Shown here piece after piece: positions 2,095-48,762 of a DNA stretch of 64,000 nt; position 1 is the first letter of the stretch; the number at the start of each line of letters is the position of its first letter. The notes under the pieces were generated by a model. That model worked only from the letters and a program-made list of their open reading frames with translations, was not told the DNA's origin and ran no database searches. Location: the NCBI GenBank assembly GCA_030650395.1, contig JAUSDY010000074.1, forward strand, positions 113,926 through 177,925. Reading direction: 5' to 3'. The translations under genes and the position numbers were made by a program. Origin of the DNA: Acidobacteriota bacterium. GTDB taxonomy: Bacteria > Acidobacteriota > Vicinamibacteria > Vicinamibacterales > UBA2999.

Positions 2095-3579
2095 TCATTC
2101 TACGACAAGCCAGCGCCGTGCGACCGCCGTTGCAAGCGCGTACAGAAAGTCCGGTAACGCGACCGGGGACGAGCGCCGCAGATAGGCTTCGAACAGGTCG
2201 GGCACGTGGCTGTGCGACGGCGCCAGCTCCAGTAGCACGAGCAGATCGACGCCGCGCACGTGGCGGACGCCGGCAGACGGATCCGAATCCACGATTCGCT
2301 GTTCCATCACGATTTCCCGGCCGCTGACCGCCGGCCGGGGTTCTATTCGAATCGCCGGATTGGGACGGACGCTCAACGACGGCGCGCGCCGCAACTGCTC
2401 GAACGCCTCGCTCACCTGCGGCGTGTCGTCGGCATCCTTCACGCTCTCGTCGGCGCGCTCGCTCCAGAACGGGTGCGGATGGCTCGGCGCGGCCTCGGTG
2501 AGAAAATGGCGGCTGGTCCTGGCATGCGCAGCTTCGACTTCGGCTTCTCTGGCGGAGAAGAAATCGAGCGCGTGTTGACGCATGGCCGGTCGAACGAGGC
2601 ACGTATGCGTCACGATGGCAGCGAGCCAGCCCGAGGCGAGCGCTTTTTTCACGCCGGCCGACGACAACGGATCGATGAACGAGCCGGCGTCGCCGACCAG
2701 CAGCCAGCCGTCGCCGGCGTACTGATCGGATCGGTAGGTGGACGCGTCCCACCCCCACGGTCCGGCCTCGAACGATGCGGCCGCGATCAGTTCGCTGAAC
2801 ACGGCGGTCTTGGCGATCTCGGCCAGATAGACATCGCCTGCGGAACCGCCGCGTGCGAGATCCGAGCGTTGGGGATCAACCATCACCGCAATGTGACGAT
2901 CGAGGGCTTGAGGGCTCGAGGGCTTCCACCCCAGCGCGGCTACCGCGCTGGGGGCCCGGTCGAGGGCTTGAGCGGCCAGCACGGGGACCGACCATGCCCA
3001 GCCGGTTTCGTACGATTCGACGAGCGTGTGCGTCTCGTCGGGCACCGGCCACGGCTGGTCGCGGCGCCACGACGCCACCAGCGCAATCGTCCGCGGGCCA
3101 TCGTCGTACTTGCGCAGGCCTTTCGCGCGAGCGAGCACACCGGATCGCCCGGTGCAGTCGAGCACGAACGAATGTAGATGCGGGTCTTTCTCGTCCGCCG
3201 AAGCGCCTTGCGCGAAGGCGGAAGACCCGCCTTGACCACCCGCGACGCGTTCGATCGCAACCCCCGCGCGCGCGGCCTCGTCGAGCATGACCGCCTCGAG
3301 CACGTCCGTCTCGACTTGCCAGCCGCGCGCGCCGGAGGCGAACGCCTCGACACGCGGCTCCCGGCTGCCCCACCAGACGGTGTTGCCGGTGGAGCGCACG
3401 AACCCGGCGCGCTCGATCGCCGCGCTGACGCCGATGGCGTCGAACAGTTTGTGGCAACTCGGTGGAAGCGACACGGCGAGGCGCGCGTCTCCCGCGGGGC
3501 GCGTGATGAGGCGCACGGCGTGACCCCACGTCGCCAACAATCGGGCCGCGCTCGATCCGGCGGGTCCGCCGCCGATCAC
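2095..3579 (-). CDS. qhpG: FAD-dependent oxidoreductase, QhpG-like (tryptophan-halogenase-type fold)
   Basis: VIGGGPAGSSAARLLATWGHAVRL N-terminal FAD motif, GDAGSFIDPLSSAGVKKAL motif, adjacent to qhpA. True start may be a few codons upstream (non-ATG). Confidence 0.7.
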   Translation of the reverse strand: MIGGGPAGSSAARLLATWGHAVRLITRPAGDARLAVSLPPSCHKLFDAIGVSAAIERAGFVRSTGNTVWWGSREPRVEAFASGARGWQVETDVLEAVMLDEAARAGVAIERVAGGQGGSSAFAQGASADEKDPHLHSFVLDCTGRSGVLARAKGLRKYDDGPRTIALVASWRRDQPWPVPDETHTLVESYETGWAWSVPVLAAQALDRAPSAVAALGWKPSSPQALDRHIAVMVDPQRSDLARGGSAGDVYLAEIAKTAVFSELIAAASFEAGPWGWDASTYRSDQYAGDGWLLVGDAGSFIDPLSSAGVKKALASGWLAAIVTHTCLVRPAMRQHALDFFSAREAEVEAAHARTSRHFLTEAAPSHPHPFWSERADESVKDADDTPQVSEAFEQLRRAPSLSVRPNPAIRIEPRPAVSGREIVMEQRIVDSDPSAGVRHVRGVDLLVLLELAPSHSHVPDLFEAYLRRSSPVALPDFLYALATAVARRWLVVE

Positions 3580-15302: not shown

Positions 15303-18300
15303 TTACGGCTGTCCCACCGTTTGCGTCGCCAGTTCGCGGCCGACTGCCTCGGCCGGGATGTGCGTCGCGGCGTTTTCCTGCGGCAAGAGCAGATCCAGGA
15401 GCGATGTTGTTAACTGGTCAATGCTTGGCCCACGCATGAAGGTCATCGTTGGTATGTCGATGTGCAGTTCCTTTTTGATGCATATCGCCAGTTCGACCGC
15501 CATCAGCGAGTCCATCCCGAGGTTGGTCAGCGGTCTATCGGTCTCGAGCTTGGAAGGCGTCGTGCCCAGCACCCGAGCGACCACCTCGCAGACCTTCCCC
15601 TGCAGTTTTCCGTGGCGCTGGTCCGGCGGCGTGCTCCGCAGCAGTTTCTGCAGGGACTCGCCTTCGGTCAGCTCGGTGGCGCTGCCCTCCCCGCTGCCAC
15701 GGGATTGCAACAGGCTCAGGCGCGGCGACTCCTTCAGAACGGGGAAGCTCTTGCGGACCAGCGACCAGTCAGCGCGGAGCACCGTACTTTGTACGGTATC
15801 GGTCTGGAGCAGCACACCCAGGGCATCGAGCATTTCGCGTGCGGGCAGGGGCGTCATGCCGATGTTTTCGAGGTGCCGAGCCAGTGCCGTCCGCGCTGCC
15901 ACGACACCGACGTCGCGGACGACGCCCCAATCCACCGCCAGCGCCGGCAGGCCTTGCGCCCGGCGATGGTGGGCCAGCATATCGAGGAACAGATTGGCGG
16001 CCACATAGTTGCCCTGCGCGGGATTGCCGATGACGGCCGCGCACGAAGAGAACATGACGAAGTGCTCCACCGGATCGTTGCGCGTCAGCGTGTGCAAGTT
16101 CCAGGCTCCGGCCACCTTGGGCGCGAGCACGCGCTGGAACCGTTGGGGCGTCAGCTCCAGCAGCGGTGCATCGTCCAGCACCATGGCGGCGTGGAAAACT
16201 CCTCGAATCGGCGGGAGTGTCTGTCGCGCCTCCGCCAGGACGCGAGCCACATCGTCGGTGGCCGCGACGTCTGCCTGTGCCACGGTCACCGTGGCGCCGG
16301 CCTGCTGAAGCTGTGCGACTGCCTCCTGAGCCGCCGCAGACGCTGCCCCGCTTCGCCCCAGCAGCAACAGGTGTTTGACACCGCGCTCGACCAGCCAGTG
16401 CGCCGCCGCCAACCCAAAGCCGCCGAGCCCGCCGGTAATGAGATAGGTTCCATCGGGACCGAGCACGGGTTGCGCCGGCAGTGCGGGTACGACCGCGACG
16501 TGCGCTTCCTGCATCGAGACCACGACCTTGCCGATGTGCCTGGCCTTGAGGAGCGTGCGAAAGGCTTCCCGCACCCGACCGACCGGATACACCACGTGCG
16601 GCAACGGGCCAAACTTGCGCTGTTCGACGAGCTGCATGACCTCGCGGAATAGCTTCGTGGCTAGGTCCGGGCGAGAAGCGACGAGGCGATCGAGATCGAC
16701 GGCGAAGAATGAAAGTTGCTTGAGGAACGGCCTGAGCCCCACCTTGGTGTTGAACTCCAGGTCGCGTTTGCCCAGCTCCACAAATCGGCCGCACTCGCGC
16801 AACAGCGACAGGCTGCGCACCAGCGTTTCGCCGCCGAGCGAGTTGAGGACGACATCGACGCCCTCGCCACCGGTGCGGGCAAGAACTGCATCGACGAAGT
16901 CGAGGGAGCGGGAATCCATGACGTGCTGGACTCCGAGCGATTTCAGGAAGTCGCGCTTCTCCGGGCTGCCCGCCGTGGCGTAAATTTCCGCGCCCAGCAA
17001 CTGGGCGAGCTGAATGGCTGCCAGTCCGACCCCGCCGGACGCCGCATGAATCAGGACGCGTTCACCGGGCTGCAGCCGCGCCAGGTGGTGCAGGCCATAG
17101 TAGACGGTCAAAAATACGACGGGCAGCGTCGCAGCTTCCTCAAAGGTCAGATGCGAGGGCTTGCGTGCCACGGCGCGAACATCGGCAAGCACATGGGAGG
17201 CAAAACTCCTCGGTGCCAGGCAAACCACGTCGTCGCCGATGCACAGCCCTTCCACTCCCGCGCCGATGGACACGATGCGCCCGGCGCATTCGAGGCCCAG
17301 GTGTGATCCCGAAAAAGTGCCCTCGAGACTCGCCTCTCCCAGCAGGTGCATCGCCTTGGCCACATCCTTGAAATTGAGCGGCGTGGCCATGACCTCGATT
17401 TCCACCTGGGGCGGACCCGGAAGGGAACGGGCGAAAACGCGGAGACTCAGATCGTCCACAAGGCCGGAGTGGCTCGCTTCCAGGCGGAAGGGAAGCGCCA
17501 CACGCGACCGACTGCCAGGCGGGGCCATGGCGTTCACCGGCGCCGCAAGGTCGAGCGGCACAAGTCGATGGACGTAGCGGTCCTGGCCGCGGAGCGCCAC
17601 CTCCGCCTCGCGGCCGTCGGCCAACAACTCCCGGGCCAGTGCCTGGATCTCGTCGCGGGCGCAAGCCGGGGTCCCCGGCGCGCGTTTTGTGCGCGCTGGG
17701 GTGGAAGCCGGGCTGAGGTCCAGCAACGCGCACCGCAATTGAGGATGCTCATTCGCCAGGACGCGGCCGATACCCCACATGACCGCTTGGGCGGGAGCCG
17801 CATCCGGGGTCCCCGGCGCGCGTTTTGTGCGCGCTGGGGTGGAATCGCCGGCCACGGCCTGTGCTCCGCGTGTAATGAGCCATAACCGCGGCTCACTCCG
17901 GCCGGATTCCGTGCAAACACGGGCCAGTTCCACCACCGACGCACCGAGCCGCGCTTGTTGCTCGACCAGGTCGGAAAGCTCCGCTGTCTCGATGGCCGGC
18001 AGGTCGAGCGACCAGAACGAGGCGATTCCAGCCAGGGGCGCTGTGCCGGCGAACTCGTCGAGCAGCAGCCGTTCCAGGTCCGCGCCCTGCCAGGCCAACA
18101 CCGTGCGAGCGCCCAATTCCTTGAGTGCCGCGGCGAGTCGTTCGCCTTGCCCCGCGCGGTCGGCGAGGATGAGCCAGTCTCCCGGCGTCCGCGCGGGCAG
18201 GGTGTCTTCGGTTGCTGGAGAGAGCGTTGGTCCCCGAGCCAGGATGACGGCGTGCGCCGACAGCGCTTCTATTGCCGCGAAGCCGCCGTCCCGCAGCATT

Positions 18301-21300
18301 TCCGTCCAGCGCGGCACCGGCAGCATGAAATCGTCGTAAGGCTCCACGGCAATCAGCAGACCATCCGAGGCAAGCAGCTTCTTCACCGAAGCGATCGTGC
18401 CGGCGCTCGTCGCCGCCCCGTGCGGCGCATGGCCGGCGATGATGATGTCAAAGGAGTTCGCCTCGAATCCCTGAGCGAGAGGGTCCTCGTCCAGGTCGAG
18501 CACCTGGGACTTGAGGAAGGCATGACCGGCGAAGCGCTCCTGGGCCTTGGCGGTGTTTTCCTCATTCGGATCGGTGAACACATAGCTGGTTCGCTGGCGC
18601 GGCAGCAACGGCAGCACCTGGGAAGTCAGGCTGCCCATCGTGCCGTCGATTTCCAGAATGCGAAGCTGCCTTTCAGCGGGTGCATGATCGACAATCGCCA
18701 TGAGAAGTTGCTGAACCAGGGTGTTGCACATGCGCAGGGCGGGATCGCTCTGATAGAGGTTAGTCAGGGTCGTCTGCGAGCTTGGCGTGGACCGCAGGTG
18801 TCGTGGATCGACCTCGCCGCGCAGGATCTCCGCGAGATTGGAGCCGAACGCTTGCAGCAGCTGAAGCCGGGGCAGATAGGCCGGCAATTCGCGCAGGCAT
18901 GTCCGCCACAACTCGGTGACGTTGCTGCCCTCGGAGTTGCGAATGACCTCCCACCGCCCTGCCACCTCGCGAATGATGCCGGCTTCCTGAAACAGGTCCA
19001 GAATGCGATGGAACAGGCGTTGTTGAGCGACGGCAATGTGCAATTGCTCCGTCAGCGAATTGCTGGTTTGCCTCGTCGTGCTACTGATGTCCCAGCCCAG
19101 ACGCCGACAGGCATCGATGCAGAACGCGATCGACAGGTTCTTGAGTTGTGCTTCAGCCTTCTTCTGCCGTTGGGGCAGGTCCGTCTCGTTCGCCAGGGTG
19201 GCGATCGACAATCGGATTGAATGTGCCAGGTCTCGAGGATGCGGCAGGGCCCACGCCGCGGTACCCGGATGATCCTGACCGGGTAGTGTTTGCAACAGCC
19301 AGATTTCATGGTGCAGGCAATCCTCGAGTTGAAGACCGTTGTCGGCCCGCTGAGCGAGCGCCCGGCAGAGCAGAGCCTGCACCTCGACAAGGACATTGCC
19401 CTGGTCATCCAGGATGGTGATATCGCCTTCCAGCCGTGCATCATCCTGGTGGACCAGACGGGCATGACTCCAGAAGCTTCGTGTTGACCCTTCAGCCTGG
19501 TCAAGCCGGCGATGCACGCGGATCGCCCCGATGCGCGCGGGCAGGTACAAGCGCGGCCGGGCTGAGGCCATCGTGCCCAGCAGCGACTGGAATGCCGCGT
19601 CCAGCACGCCCGGGAACACCACGAAATCCCCGACCTGTCCGCTCACGGCCTCGGCCACGGTAATGCGTGCCACTGCCTCGCGGTCGCCGGTCCAGAGTTG
19701 CTCGATCCCCGCAAAGACCGGTCCGTATTCCAGACCGACGCTCTTGAACATTTCGTAGCAGGCCGGTTTCGCGATGATGTGCGGACACCGTGCCACCACT
19801 TGCTGCACGTCCACCCGCGGAGGAGTACGCCCGGCGGCAAGCTTGTCGAGCTTGCCGGACGAATAGCGAACCCAGGGACCGTCACTCTGCTTGCCGTGGA
19901 GTGTGAAGGTCTTCTGCGAGCGATCGATCAGAAGTTGAACGGGCTGCGGCGTTGTGCTGTTGAGAAACAGCGGTCGATCCAACTCGAGTGCCGCCAGAGC
20001 GGCGTGTTCCGCGCCGAACAGTTGCGTCGCCGCCGCCAGCGCCATTTCGACGTGTCCGGCCGCCGGGAACACGATGGTGCCCTGGACCTTGTGGTCGGCC
20101 AGCCAGCCGTGATGGCGCTGGACTTCCAGCTCGGTGTCCCATGCGGCCTCGGTATGGGCCGTGACAAGGGCATGGCCGAGCAGCGGATGGACGGTCGGAC
20201 CGAAATGCCCAAGGGCGCTCCAGCCGGCGTCGCCGGTGCGGAGATCGCGGCTCAGATCAGATTCACGCCAGAAGCGTTCGCGTTGCCAGGGATAGGTGGG
20301 CAGCGACACCAGCCGGCCGGCGTGCGGATGGAAGCGTTGCCAGTCGATGTCGAGGCCTGTCGTGTACATCCGGCCCAGTGCCGCCAGCATGGTTGCGCGC
20401 TCCGGCTCCTTGCGGCGCAGGGTGGCCAGTACCTGTACCGGCGTGTTGGTCGCCAAGGCGCACTCCTGGATGGAAGCCGACAGCACGGGATGAGGGCCGA
20501 CTTCCAGGAACAATCCATGTCCTGTTTCGAGCAACCTGTCGACGACACTCGCGAACTGCACCGGTTCGCGGACGTTGCGCCACCAGTACTCCGCGTTCAT
20601 GCCGGTCTCGTCGAGGAACGCGCCTGTCACCGTCGAGTACAGCGGGATTTCCGGACAGCGCGGCGACAGAGATGACAAAACCTCCAACAATTCCTCGCGC
20701 AGCGGGTCCATCTTTGGGCTGTGATAGGGAACGTCCACCTGCAGAATGCGGGAAAACGTACCTTCCACGCTGAGTTCCTCGTGGATGCCCGCGAGAGCGT
20801 CGGCGTCGCCCGAAAGCGTCACGGCCTGCGGCCCGTTGATCGCGGCAATGGACACCTGGCCATCGTGTGGCAGCAGAAGACGCCGGGCTTCTTGCAGCGA
20901 GAGACCGACGGCGAGCACCTTACCCTCGCCGCGCGTGCGGTGCTGCAAGCGGCTGCGGTGGTAGCTGACGTGGACCGCATCCTCCAGACTCAGGGCCCCC
21001 GACACGTAGGCCGCCGCCACCTCACCGGCACTGTGGCCGATGATCATGTCCGGCTTGATGCCCCACGCTTCCCACAGTGCCGCCAGGCCGACCTGCAGAG
21101 TGAAGATGCCCATCTGGGCAAAGCGATCGTCGTCAATGCGCGAACGGTCCTCGGGTGCCGACATTTCTTTCAGAATGGAATCGCGCATGTGGCCGCGGAA
21201 AAGGCGATCGCACCGCTCTACCGCCTTGCGGAATACCGGCTCGTCGTGCAGCAACTGCTGCCCCATCGCCCACCACTGCGGTCCCATGCCGGTAAAGACG

Positions 21301-22973
21301 AACACCAGCGGCGGCCTGCTCCCCGACACGGTCTTGCCGGCCGACAGTCCGGCAACCTTGTCGCCTGCCAGGAGCGCATCGAGCTGCTTGGTCAGTGCTG
21401 TCGTCGAGTCGGCCACCAGCGCGAGGCGATGGGCGTGATGCGTGCGCCGCACCCCGGCCGAATAGACCAGGTCCACCAGCGCGGCATCTGCTCCGGCTCC
21501 GCTGGTGAGGAAGTCGCGGTAGGACAATGCCATGGCCTCGATCGCTTCCTTGCTGCGCGCCGACAGCGGCAGCAACCAGGCTTTGCCGGAGGCCGGGACG
21601 CTGCCGTTGCGAACGGTGGACCTGTCCCTGGGCGTTTCCCCCAGCAGGACATGGGCGTTGGTGCCGCCGAACCCGAAAGAGTTGACGCCGGCCAGCCTGG
21701 TCGCGCCGTTGGTTTCCGGCCAGGGCTCGAGCTCGGTCGGCACGCGCAGGCACAGCCTGTCCATGTCGATCTGCGGATTGGGCGACTGGAAATGGAGATT
21801 GGGCGGGATGGCACGGTGGAACAGGGACAGGGCCACTTTCATGACGCCCGCAATTCCAGCGCCTGCTTCGAGGTGGCCGATGTTCGATTTCACCGAGCCC
21901 AGGATGCAGGGCGCGTTCGCGGGCCGGCCCTCGCCCACAACGCCGCCCAGAGCGGTTGCTTCGATGGGGTCGCCCACGGGAGTGCCGGTGCCGTGCGCCT
22001 CTATGAATTGTACGTCGCGCGGCCGGATGCCAGCTTTGGCGCAGGCCTCGCGCACCAGGGCCGCCTGGGATTCGCCGTTGGGTACGCTGATGCCGGGGGT
22101 CTGTCCGTCTTGATTGATGGCCGTGGCGAGGATGACCGAGTAAATGCGGTCGCCGTCCCGCCGAGCGGCGGCAAGAGGCTTCAGCAGGAGCATGCCCGCG
22201 CCCTCGGCGCGGACGTAGCCGTTGGCCCGGGCGTCGAAGCTCTTGCAGCGGCCGTCCGGCGAGAGCATGTTGGCACTGCTGAATCCCAGTGTCATCTCCG
22301 GCTTGAGAATGGCATTGGAACCGCCGACCAGCGCCGTGGCCGATTCGCCATTCCAGATGCTTTCGGACGCCAGGTGCAGCGCGACCAGAGACGAGGAGCA
22401 GGCAGTATCCACAGCGAAACTGGGCCCGCGTAGATCGAAACAGTAGGAGATGCGATTGGCAGCGATGCACAATGCCGAGCCGAGTGCCAGATACGGATTC
22501 AAACCGACCTTACGTTCGGTCACCACCGACATCAAGTCGCCGTAATCGTGTGTGGAGATGCCGATAAACACGCCGGTCCGGGAACCCGCCAGTTGCGCGG
22601 GAACCTGTCCCGCGTCTTCGAGCGCTTCCCAAGCCGTTTCCAGCAACAGGCGCTGCTGTGGATCCATCGCCTGAGCTTCTCGGGGCGAGATGCCGAAGAA
22701 GTGCGGATCGAACTGGTCGATTCTGTTAATCAGCCCAGCGTGGCGAGTGTAGGTTTTGCCGGACTTCCCCGGTTCGGGATCGTGAATCGCGCGCAAGGAC
22801 CAGCGGTCCGGCGTGATTTCTCGAATGCAGTCGCGTCCTTCGCAGAGCATCTGCCAGAAGGCCGTCGGAGTATCGGCGTCGCCTGGATACCGGCAGCCCA
22901 TGCCGACGATCGCGATCGGCTCACGCGGCTGGTCGCGCCATCCCTGCGCTGGTAGAGAGCTGGCTCTGACCAT
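15303..22973 (-). CDS. Type I modular polyketide synthase, single module KS-AT-DH-(MT)-ER-KR-ACP
   Basis: KS DTACSSSLVALH (about 22376-22412), AT GHSAGEVAAAY (about 21007-21045), DH HKVQGTIVFPAAG, ER LIHAASGGVGLAAIQLAQ, KR YLITGGLGGFGLAAA, ACP LGMDSLMAVEL. Start chosen at MVRASSLPAQGW. Confidence 0.93.
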   Translation of the reverse strand: MVRASSLPAQGWRDQPREPIAIVGMGCRYPGDADTPTAFWQMLCEGRDCIREITPDRWSLRAIHDPEPGKSGKTYTRHAGLINRIDQFDPHFFGISPREAQAMDPQQRLLLETAWEALEDAGQVPAQLAGSRTGVFIGISTHDYGDLMSVVTERKVGLNPYLALGSALCIAANRISYCFDLRGPSFAVDTACSSSLVALHLASESIWNGESATALVGGSNAILKPEMTLGFSSANMLSPDGRCKSFDARANGYVRAEGAGMLLLKPLAAARRDGDRIYSVILATAINQDGQTPGISVPNGESQAALVREACAKAGIRPRDVQFIEAHGTGTPVGDPIEATALGGVVGEGRPANAPCILGSVKSNIGHLEAGAGIAGVMKVALSLFHRAIPPNLHFQSPNPQIDMDRLCLRVPTELEPWPETNGATRLAGVNSFGFGGTNAHVLLGETPRDRSTVRNGSVPASGKAWLLPLSARSKEAIEAMALSYRDFLTSGAGADAALVDLVYSAGVRRTHHAHRLALVADSTTALTKQLDALLAGDKVAGLSAGKTVSGSRPPLVFVFTGMGPQWWAMGQQLLHDEPVFRKAVERCDRLFRGHMRDSILKEMSAPEDRSRIDDDRFAQMGIFTLQVGLAALWEAWGIKPDMIIGHSAGEVAAAYVSGALSLEDAVHVSYHRSRLQHRTRGEGKVLAVGLSLQEARRLLLPHDGQVSIAAINGPQAVTLSGDADALAGIHEELSVEGTFSRILQVDVPYHSPKMDPLREELLEVLSSLSPRCPEIPLYSTVTGAFLDETGMNAEYWWRNVREPVQFASVVDRLLETGHGLFLEVGPHPVLSASIQECALATNTPVQVLATLRRKEPERATMLAALGRMYTTGLDIDWQRFHPHAGRLVSLPTYPWQRERFWRESDLSRDLRTGDAGWSALGHFGPTVHPLLGHALVTAHTEAAWDTELEVQRHHGWLADHKVQGTIVFPAAGHVEMALAAATQLFGAEHAALAALELDRPLFLNSTTPQPVQLLIDRSQKTFTLHGKQSDGPWVRYSSGKLDKLAAGRTPPRVDVQQVVARCPHIIAKPACYEMFKSVGLEYGPVFAGIEQLWTGDREAVARITVAEAVSGQVGDFVVFPGVLDAAFQSLLGTMASARPRLYLPARIGAIRVHRRLDQAEGSTRSFWSHARLVHQDDARLEGDITILDDQGNVLVEVQALLCRALAQRADNGLQLEDCLHHEIWLLQTLPGQDHPGTAAWALPHPRDLAHSIRLSIATLANETDLPQRQKKAEAQLKNLSIAFCIDACRRLGWDISSTTRQTSNSLTEQLHIAVAQQRLFHRILDLFQEAGIIREVAGRWEVIRNSEGSNVTELWRTCLRELPAYLPRLQLLQAFGSNLAEILRGEVDPRHLRSTPSSQTTLTNLYQSDPALRMCNTLVQQLLMAIVDHAPAERQLRILEIDGTMGSLTSQVLPLLPRQRTSYVFTDPNEENTAKAQERFAGHAFLKSQVLDLDEDPLAQGFEANSFDIIIAGHAPHGAATSAGTIASVKKLLASDGLLIAVEPYDDFMLPVPRWTEMLRDGGFAAIEALSAHAVILARGPTLSPATEDTLPARTPGDWLILADRAGQGERLAAALKELGARTVLAWQGADLERLLLDEFAGTAPLAGIASFWSLDLPAIETAELSDLVEQQARLGASVVELARVCTESGRSEPRLWLITRGAQAVAGDSTPARTKRAPGTPDAAPAQAVMWGIGRVLANEHPQLRCALLDLSPASTPARTKRAPGTPACARDEIQALARELLADGREAEVALRGQDRYVHRLVPLDLAAPVNAMAPPGSRSRVALPFRLEASHSGLVDDLSLRVFARSLPGPPQVEIEVMATPLNFKDVAKAMHLLGEASLEGTFSGSHLGLECAGRIVSIGAGVEGLCIGDDVVCLAPRSFASHVLADVRAVARKPSHLTFEEAATLPVVFLTVYYGLHHLARLQPGERVLIHAASGGVGLAAIQLAQLLGAEIYATAGSPEKRDFLKSLGVQHVMDSRSLDFVDAVLARTGGEGVDVVLNSLGGETLVRSLSLLRECGRFVELGKRDLEFNTKVGLRPFLKQLSFFAVDLDRLVASRPDLATKLFREVMQLVEQRKFGPLPHVVYPVGRVREAFRTLLKARHIGKVVVSMQEAHVAVVPALPAQPVLGPDGTYLITGGLGGFGLAAAHWLVERGVKHLLLLGRSGAASAAAQEAVAQLQQAGATVTVAQADVAATDDVARVLAEARQTLPPIRGVFHAAMVLDDAPLLELTPQRFQRVLAPKVAGAWNLHTLTRNDPVEHFVMFSSCAAVIGNPAQGNYVAANLFLDMLAHHRRAQGLPALAVDWGVVRDVGVVAARTALARHLENIGMTPLPAREMLDALGVLLQTDTVQSTVLRADWSLVRKSFPVLKESPRLSLLQSRGSGEGSATELTEGESLQKLLRSTPPDQRHGKLQGKVCEVVARVLGTTPSKLETDRPLTNLGMDSLMAVELAICIKKELHIDIPTMTFMRGPSIDQLTTSLLDLLLPQENAATHIPAEAVGRELATQTVGQP
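17666..17706. repeat. Intragenic palindromic element (family A), PKS copy 1
   Basis: CCGGGGTCCCCGGCGCGCGTTTTGTGCGCGCTGGGGTGGAA; flanked by AAGCCGGG direct repeats. Confidence 0.75.
17804..17844. repeat. Intragenic palindromic element (family A), PKS copy 2
   Basis: 41 bp identical to 17666-17706, offset 138 bp, same reading frame (STPARTKRAPGTP). Confidence 0.75.
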
Positions 22974-23022
22974 TGTCGCGAGAATACCAGATGGGAGGGC
23001 CCCTAAGCGCACACCCTTGCTC

Positions 23023-44253: not shown

Positions 44254-44288
44254 AGGCGGAAGGCAGAAGGCAAAAGGCAAAAGGCAAA
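44254..44288. repeat. Heptanucleotide tandem repeat (AGGCAAA)n
   Basis: AGGCGGA AGGCAGA AGGCAAA AGGCAAA AGGCAAA. Confidence 0.85.
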
Positions 44289-44301
44289 AAGGACGGAGAC
44301 G

Positions 44302-46528: not shown

Positions 46529-47986
46529 TCACGGAATCTCTTTCGTGAGCGCCAACGCCTTCCGGATCGTCGCGAGGTGTGCCGACAAGCCCTCACGTCC
46601 GTCCACTGCGTCGCGATCGAAATCGGCGAGTAGGGCCTCCAGCCGCTCGCGGCCCCGGGCCGTGCGAGCGGCCTGGCGCGGCGTCTTGTTTCCCAGCGCC
46701 GGGACACGAGTGTCGAGCCACGCTTCCCAGTGCTTGCGATTCATCTCCGCTTGAATCGCCTCGAGTTCGGGGGATGACTCTGGCGTTGCCTCATCGATCG
46801 GCTCTCCCGCCGCGCGCCGGCGAGCGCGTTCCTCGATCGCGTCCGACGGATCGACCACCTTGGTATCAATGAGCACGGCGGTCCGGCCCAGGCGTTTGGC
46901 GATCTCGCGCTTCAGCCGATCAGCGCGACGGGCCGAGTTCACGTCGGCCACCAAGCTGCCCGCCATGAGCCGGATGTTTCCCAGGACGGTATTGGTCCAA
47001 TCCTTGTGCTGCCGGTTTCCGGCCTTGACCCAGCTCAGCGTGGCGCTCGACACCGCACCGGACGCGTCGCGAACGACCTCGTCACTATGGTCTTCGTCGT
47101 GCACCATCGCGAGCGAAGCCAGCTTCTCGAACGCAGCACCGACCGGCGTCTTCAGCCCGTAGGTCAACGTCGTCAACGCGACCGGATCGCCGTCGGTGTT
47201 GCACAACTGCGGCGGCGTCGGATCGAGCAATTCGGCGGCAATGTCGAAATACAGCTCGCGGATCTCGATGTCGAAGTCAGCGAGATCGTGCCGGGTCAAC
47301 AACCGCCTTCGGAACACGCGCTCGCGCCAGTCGATGATGCGCGTGTGCCAGCGCGGCGGCACAACGAAGGGCGCCGCACCAAACATGAGGCTGACGCCGT
47401 CCATGGTCACGACCCGCGTGAAGATCAGATCGGCCAGTCGCAAGTTTCGCGATGCGCCCTGCTCGAGAACGTGGAACCGCCGCCCGGTCAGCACGTCCTT
47501 GAGGTCGAGGCTCCGGCCCGGAATCACCCGCTCGACCGCGAAGACGCTCATCGGACTCCGGCACGCAGTTTCGATGTAGGCGCGGTCAAGGTCCGGCACC
47601 TCGGCATCGGTCGTCGCCAGCCAGGCAAGGCCGATCGGCTCGGTAGGCCAGGTGGCGTCGGCCTCGTCAGCCTCCTGGTCTGGCACGAAGCCCAACACGA
47701 GCCACGGCACGAACATCGGATCGAACTCGGGCGTCGTCACCATGTCTTCGGGAACGTCGTCGTAGATCCAGAAGTCTTCCCACGCATGAACGATGAACGG
47801 CTCGCCCCATGTGGCGTCGATGACCCGGAGAAGTCCGTCCACGACGCGCCCTTCGGCGGTCCGAAGCCGCAGGCGCGCGGCGTCCTCCGCACTCCTCGCC
47901 GGCAGGCAGCAATGTTTGAACTTGCGACCACTGCCGCACGGGCAAGGATCGTTGCGACCGGCAGCTTGGTAACTGTTAACTGGCAA
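46529..47986 (-). CDS. SEC-C motif-containing protein
   Basis: GRNDPCPCGSGRKFKHCC SEC-C zinc motif at N-terminus; C-terminal PALGNKTPRQAARTARGRERLEALLADFD. Confidence 0.75.
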   Translation of the reverse strand: MPVNSYQAAGRNDPCPCGSGRKFKHCCLPARSAEDAARLRLRTAEGRVVDGLLRVIDATWGEPFIVHAWEDFWIYDDVPEDMVTTPEFDPMFVPWLVLGFVPDQEADEADATWPTEPIGLAWLATTDAEVPDLDRAYIETACRSPMSVFAVERVIPGRSLDLKDVLTGRRFHVLEQGASRNLRLADLIFTRVVTMDGVSLMFGAAPFVVPPRWHTRIIDWRERVFRRRLLTRHDLADFDIEIRELYFDIAAELLDPTPPQLCNTDGDPVALTTLTYGLKTPVGAAFEKLASLAMVHDEDHSDEVVRDASGAVSSATLSWVKAGNRQHKDWTNTVLGNIRLMAGSLVADVNSARRADRLKREIAKRLGRTAVLIDTKVVDPSDAIEERARRRAAGEPIDEATPESSPELEAIQAEMNRKHWEAWLDTRVPALGNKTPRQAARTARGRERLEALLADFDRDAVDGREGLSAHLATIRKALALTKEIP

Positions 47987-48006
47987 CTGTTAACTGTTAA
48001 CTGTTA
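47969..48006. repeat. Heptamer tandem repeat (AACTGTT)n
   Basis: GTAACTGTTAACTGGCAACTGTTAACTGTTAACTGTTA. Confidence 0.8.
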
Positions 48007-48701: not shown

Positions 48702-48762
48702 AGAAGGCAAAAGGCGACCCGGAAAGGCAAAAGGCACAAGGCAGAAGGCAGAAGGCAGAAAC
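48702..48762. repeat. Heptanucleotide tandem repeat (GGCAGAA/GGCAAAA)n
   Basis: AGAAGGCAAAAGGCGACCCGGAAAGGCAAAAGGCACAAGGCAGAAGGCAGAAGGCAGAAA. Confidence 0.8.

Follow-up and report, generated by a model that had tools for sequence, protein, structure and literature searches.

We find that a gene of a soil Acidobacteriota bacterium carries, in frame, a palindromic sequence that recurs throughout its genome. This palindrome is probably a mobile element of the Rickettsia palindromic element (RPE) type, ~34 bp long, non-coding and non-autonomous, which belongs to an Acidobacteriota family and whose insertions preserve the reading frame. The analysis concerns a 64,000-nucleotide stretch of one contig (positions 113,926-177,925; the window) from a host genome of 5.41 Mb in 180 contigs; the features found there are collected in Table 1.

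Table 1. Coordinates of the host genes, palindromes and array arms in the window
Feature	Position	Strand	Basis or remark
FAD-dependent monooxygenase/halogenase-like host gene, nearest NCBIfam model QhpG	2095..3579	-	profile score
69-bp (23-codon) insertion, palindrome plus 33 bp of octamer array	2899..2967	-	missing from homologs
Left arm of octamer array (TCGAGGGC TTGAGGGC TCGAGGGC TT), holding the first 13-bp repeat	2900..2925	+	octamer same as in genome-wide arrays
Palindromic element CCACCCCAGCGCGGCTACCGCGCTGGGGGCCCGG, 34 bp	2926..2959	+	genome-wide family; predicted hairpin, z -5.2
Right arm of octamer array, the second 13-bp repeat	2960..2972	+	register same as in other array-embedded copies
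Type I polyketide synthase (PKS) host gene (KS-AT-DH-MT-ER-KR-ACP)	15303..23012	-	Pfam
41-bp palindrome variant with a different loop side, CGCGCACAAAACGCGCG	17666..17706	-	in PKS gene
Second copy of the 41-bp variant	17804..17844	-	in PKS gene, 138 bp from the first

The insertion in the QhpG-like gene

The host protein scored 181.8 bits over two stretches against the NCBIfam QhpG model, its best equivalog match; since the cut-off is 240, we refer to the gene as QhpG-like. The protein contains 23 extra residues that are absent from 28 of 28 comparable homologs among its relatives (protein alignment), and the corresponding 69 bp are also missing from seven same-genus DNA sequences. When the protein was used as a tblastn query, the alignment split at residues ~200/227 in most relatives. 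Ortholog alignments at both the protein and the DNA level confirmed that the insertion preserves the frame, and the open frame runs through it to give QALDRAPSAVAALGWKPSSPQALDR, just as an earlier note on this DNA had read it.

That note had described a 20-codon insertion flanked by 13-bp direct repeats. The letters are exactly as it gave them, with TCGAGGGCTTGAG at 2900-2912 and 2960-2972 bracketing CTTCCACCCCAGCGCGGCTACCGCGCTGGGGGCCCGG, and its expectation that orthologs would lack the extra residues was borne out, except that the gain is 23 codons (69 bp) and not 20. In every close homolog SVP(V/T) and R(H) are separated by four residues; in the window protein this interval is occupied by LAAQ followed by ALDRAPSAVAALGWKPSSPQALD. 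With four residues in orthologs against LAAQ plus 23 in the window, neither 13-bp copy was part of the uninterrupted gene: both are repeat units of an array of octamers, (TTGAGGGC)n, and do not represent a target-site duplication. The net gain of 69 bp is thus made up of 36 bp and 33 bp of array, although its placement is ambiguous across the repeated bases and may slide as far as 2904-2972. The search for arms and flanks that the note had proposed showed the family to be real but revealed no 13-bp repeat outside arrays. A single insertion of the 60-bp unit with a 13-bp target-site duplication, to which the identical, in-frame 13-mers would point, is scarcely credible in view of the 23 residues lacking in orthologs, the genome-wide occurrence of the 13-mers as array units and the copies outside arrays that have no such repeat.

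Palindrome family and octamer arrays

The element in the QhpG-like gene has an 11-bp stem (2929-2939 pairing with 2943-2953) and a 3-nt loop, with unpaired ends, CCA on the 5′ side of the stem and GCCCGG on the 3′ side. The family consensus is CCACCCCAGCGCGG-NTG-CCGCGCTGGGG-GCCCGG, of 34 bp, or 35 bp when it ends in GCCCCGG; a rarer form reads CCACCCACGCGCGG...CCGCGCGTGGGGCCCGG. Folding of family copies as single-stranded DNA gave an 11-bp stem with a 3-nt loop (z ~ -3 to -5). Searches of the whole genome returned 34 exact matches to the 14-mer CCACCCCAGCGCGG, against 0 for the reversed control, and 41 matches at up to two mismatches to a 22-mer spanning most of the hairpin, again against 0, which rules out chance as the origin of the family.

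Within the window the arm TTCCACCCCAGCGCG is matched exactly at three places (2924-2938 on the plus strand, 17692-17706 and 17830-17844 on the minus strand); the expectation at up to two mismatches is 0.33, and no shuffle reached three. The arm is thus common to the QhpG-like and PKS genes, and with ~41 copies genome-wide the proposal that the two genes are linked by a mobile-looking palindromic family holds. The two PKS 41-mers are identical to each other, with a centre that is longer than and different from that of the 34-bp element. When the protein is aligned to mycocerosic acid synthase, the residues encoded by both copies fall opposite gaps.

Among the frequent variants the stem is preserved through paired changes: AGCGCGG/CCGCGCT, AACGCGG/CCGCGTT, GGCGCGG/CCGCGCC and CACGCGCGG/CCGCGCGTG are altered on both sides. 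Overall stem pairing across 53 distinct sequences was 0.789 (shuffle mean 0.756, maximum 0.782), a weak statistic because this loose collection takes in chance sequences.

The distribution of the palindrome is patchy. It was present in 18 of 60 genomes searched, with 1 to ~23 copies per relative, and the genome collection holds at least 107 stretches that contain it, gp4-type MAGs among them. Element-bearing database matches are nearly all from Acidobacteriota, mainly of the gp6 / Luteitalea type, and as far as seen the family is confined to this phylum. One exact copy lies on a contig labelled as a Hyphomicrobiales MAG (L219), by binning error or transfer. In several gp6 MAGs (L152, L157, L163, L183, L205 and others) the palindrome is nested inside longer repeats, with ...CGATGCATCCCCGCT on the left, GCTGGCTGCGTTGCTCC... 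on the right and 0-2 variable bases at the right junction. Carriage by phages was considered and rejected, as an exact-match search of IMG/VR for the palindrome pattern found none.

The octamer arrays are a feature independent of the palindrome. In this genome (TTGAGGGC)n gave 233 overlapping 18-mer matches against 1 in the control, and most array loci inspected are without a palindrome. By hand count, ~17 of ~43 palindromes are embedded in such arrays, although array sequence amounts to at most 233 x 18 bp (also by hand), below 0.1% of the genome; the palindrome therefore has a strong preference for arrays as landing sites. Sister species (G001, G006 and G007) carry species-specific octamers of their own, TTGAGGTC, GGGTGCCT and GGGTGCTT, likewise scattered over their genomes, and we know of no mechanism by which such arrays spread.

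At one position of an M20-type peptidase gene, a comparison of this genome (L004) with same-genus G001, G006, G004 and G005 (L315, L303, L310 and L311) revealed a different tandem unit per species: TTGAGGGC, GGGTGCTT, GGTGCCAG and GGTGCTGA. Each species seems to have filled this site anew with its own type of array. The window also contains heptamer arrays of AAGGCAA, TAACTGT and AAGGCAG (44260-44289, 47970-48006 and 48724-48760, respectively).

Insertions in other genes and their junctions

Insertions were measured against uninterrupted orthologs. At the DNA level the net gain was 36 bp in the genes for citrate synthase, an acyl-CoA ligase, a DUF2911 protein and an NHL-type protein and in the L029 and L008 hosts. 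A ROK kinase gained 39 bp within its conserved GHNPLP region, and a Rieske oxygenase gained 75 bp, a tandem pair of copies (39 + 36). Pfam supports the citrate synthase, DUF2911, Rieske, ROK and AMP-binding assignments. In all nine genes with a measured gain a whole number of codons was added, usually 12. This tally leaves out the M20-type peptidase gene, which bears two palindromes linked by octamer units and whose relatives have their own arrays there. The bare 36-bp unit in six of the nine genes suggests a fixed insertion product.

In-frame copies were also found in other species, in HypB, an FKBP-type isomerase, an NqrB/RnfD-like protein, an IS91-type transposase and a DUF1592 protein, the last with three copies in tandem. 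Alignment of HypB with a solved HypB structure placed 25 query residues against 10 at the insert site. The copy in the IS91-type transposase gene (L204) lies between PVRQ and WVLSLP. Judging from the alignments, the host proteins appear to acquire a small extra loop rather than being destroyed, and the inserts probably lie at surface loops. An artefact of assembly or binning would be favoured by the fragmentation of this genome and of many relatives; we give it practically no weight, as coding sequence is intact on both sides of single insertions in at least nine genes and the same family occurs in many independently assembled Acidobacteriota genomes.

The canonical 36-mer has stop codons in 0 of 6 frames and so, given its length, neither shifts nor ends a reading frame. 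Among random 36-mers from the window 30% are likewise stop-free, and among shuffled versions of the element 67%, which speaks for permissiveness and not design. Of the 12 intragenic palindromes verified against orthologs, ten are read in one of two alanine-rich frames (NRAPSAAAALGW or HPSAAAALGA), while the PRWG frames are never used; if the six frames were equal, this would have p ~5e-4 (hand tally, counted post hoc). Such a bias would be expected of functional modules (linkers or helices) whose peptide is kept by selection, but it may also stem from a preference for certain targets or from selection against the worst peptides. The enzymes that carry the inserts are unrelated, copies between genes or embedded in repeats are frequent, and DNA-level comparison showed that insertions are not shared even inside the genus, all of which makes selected modules a highly improbable explanation.

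Clean empty sites in same-genus sister genomes allow the insertion product (the 36 bp, the junction bases and the choice of target) to be read directly. In the DUF2911 gene the uninterrupted sequence CCA-GTT-GCC corresponds to CCA-GTT-[element]-GTT-GCC in the filled site, and in the NHL-type gene GCT occurs once in the empty site and twice in the filled one, so that outside arrays the junction repeat is only ~2-3 bp. Both junctions can be parsed as a 33-bp element that duplicated 3 bp or as a 34-bp element that duplicated 2 bp; the array-embedded copies, which read GGGCTT-[34]-TTGAGGGC, agree better with the latter.

The duplicated bases in the clearest cases are mostly 2-bp pyrimidines (TT/CT/TC). 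For own-genome copies outside arrays the flanks matched more often than in permutations (p 0.005-0.01), at about twice the permuted frequency (9 against 4.5, p 0.01), and flank matches of at least three bases exceeded permutation in other genomes (p < 0.001). Some copies are 35 bp long with no clear duplication (citrate synthase, L029), and many have a TT or CTT at the left end that is not matched at the right; the ends of the element are therefore approximate. MITEs of DDE transposons share terminal inverted repeats with an autonomous IS and have a target duplication of constant length; the junction repeats observed here are mostly 2 bp, sometimes 4-5 bp or none.

Mobility and relation to known systems

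The main competing explanation holds that these are ordinary REPs mobilised by a REP-associated tyrosine transposase (RAYT, Y1 HUH) and that some copies are genic by chance. REPs are known to include hairpins of ~34 bp that occur in tandem and within genes (PMC3733652), and the host genome has one Y1 transposase gene, located ~11 kb upstream of the window. Yet none of 161 listed copies has a GTAG or CGTC tag at either end, and no copy of the palindrome was found at 31 Y1 loci (the one in this genome and 30 in 12 relatives, with ~1-1.5 kb of flank each). Moreover, G051 and G057, which bear 10 and 6 copies, gave no Y1 match (the G057 genome is 74% complete). Single-strand insertion of the IS200/IS605 type produces no target duplication, whereas many copies of the palindrome have a short one. 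We therefore regard movement by a RAYT as unlikely.

When all ORFs lying up to 1.5 kb from the 161 copies were compared with one another, no recurrent transposase or neighbour gene emerged, and no parent IS was found among these neighbours; representatives of the two largest ORF clusters looked, by eye, like longer repeats containing the palindrome. From the lack of a tag, of palindromes at Y1 loci and of a recurrent neighbour, together with carriers that have no Y1 match, we infer that an enzyme acts in trans.

On the reading as a mobile element of the RPE type, the palindrome inserts precisely at many unrelated sites, six single genic insertions each adding 36 bp (34 plus mostly 2), and is borne as a loop of 12-13 residues in enzymes with intact reading frames. 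It favours (TTGAGGGC)n arrays, the qhpG insertion being such a case, and may move as a hairpin by means of the enzyme supplied in trans. Frame-preserving insertions in surface loops would persist because they are nearly neutral, and frame-breaking ones would be purged by selection. A bolder version, which we put forward tentatively, is that of a selfish family specialised in genes, with a unit that together with its junction duplication makes exactly 36 bp and is stop-free in six frames, and with a RAYT-independent spread across Acidobacteriota that seeds 12-residue loops in core enzymes.

Mobile palindromes inserted in frame have so far been described mainly from Rickettsia and a few REP-rich genomes. 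The present case bears on the movement of short repeats without a visible transposase and on the origin of new protein loops. It also matters for annotation, since profile searches can split or down-score such genes, as with the QhpG-like protein that falls under the NCBIfam cut-off.

The short tandemly repeated repetitive (STRR) arrays of cyanobacteria consist of heptamers. The (TTGAGGGC)n arrays resemble them in being short, species-specific, tandem and scattered over the genome, but they consist of octamers and are the landing site of the palindrome, not the palindrome itself. REPs of the GTAG type, associated with RAYTs, are hairpins of 20-40 bp that occur grouped and in high copy number, sometimes within genes, as in Opitutus terrae (PMC3733652); the Acidobacteriota palindrome differs from them in having neither GTAG nor a Y1 gene beside the copies examined. 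CGTC-tagged REPs, which include RPE-4, RPE-6 and dRS3, are short hairpins, some of them intragenic, that are unlinked to transposase genes (PMC3733652). They have a stem of 8-9 bp, a loop of 4-5 nt and a CGTC end (Table 1 in PMC3733652), in contrast to the 11-bp stem and 3-nt loop without CGTC found here.

The closest likeness is to RPEs, palindromic repeats that lie in frame in many unrelated protein genes, where they add peptide, as well as in intergenic DNA (PMC10969869, PMC3733652). The Acidobacteriota palindrome likewise occurs in frame in unrelated genes and is absent from orthologs, which places it in the same functional class. RPEs are described as ~150 bp long, RPE-4 and RPE-6 corresponding to CGTC-tagged REPs; compared with these published descriptions, the present unit is much shorter at 34 bp (net 36), has the ends CCA / GCCCGG, lacks CGTC and comes from another phylum. 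Our literature search, in which subscription journals were thinly covered, found no description of this family. The palindrome thus seems to represent a separate, as yet undescribed family that is RPE-like in behaviour, apparently reported here for the first time and from a large, free-living soil phylum.
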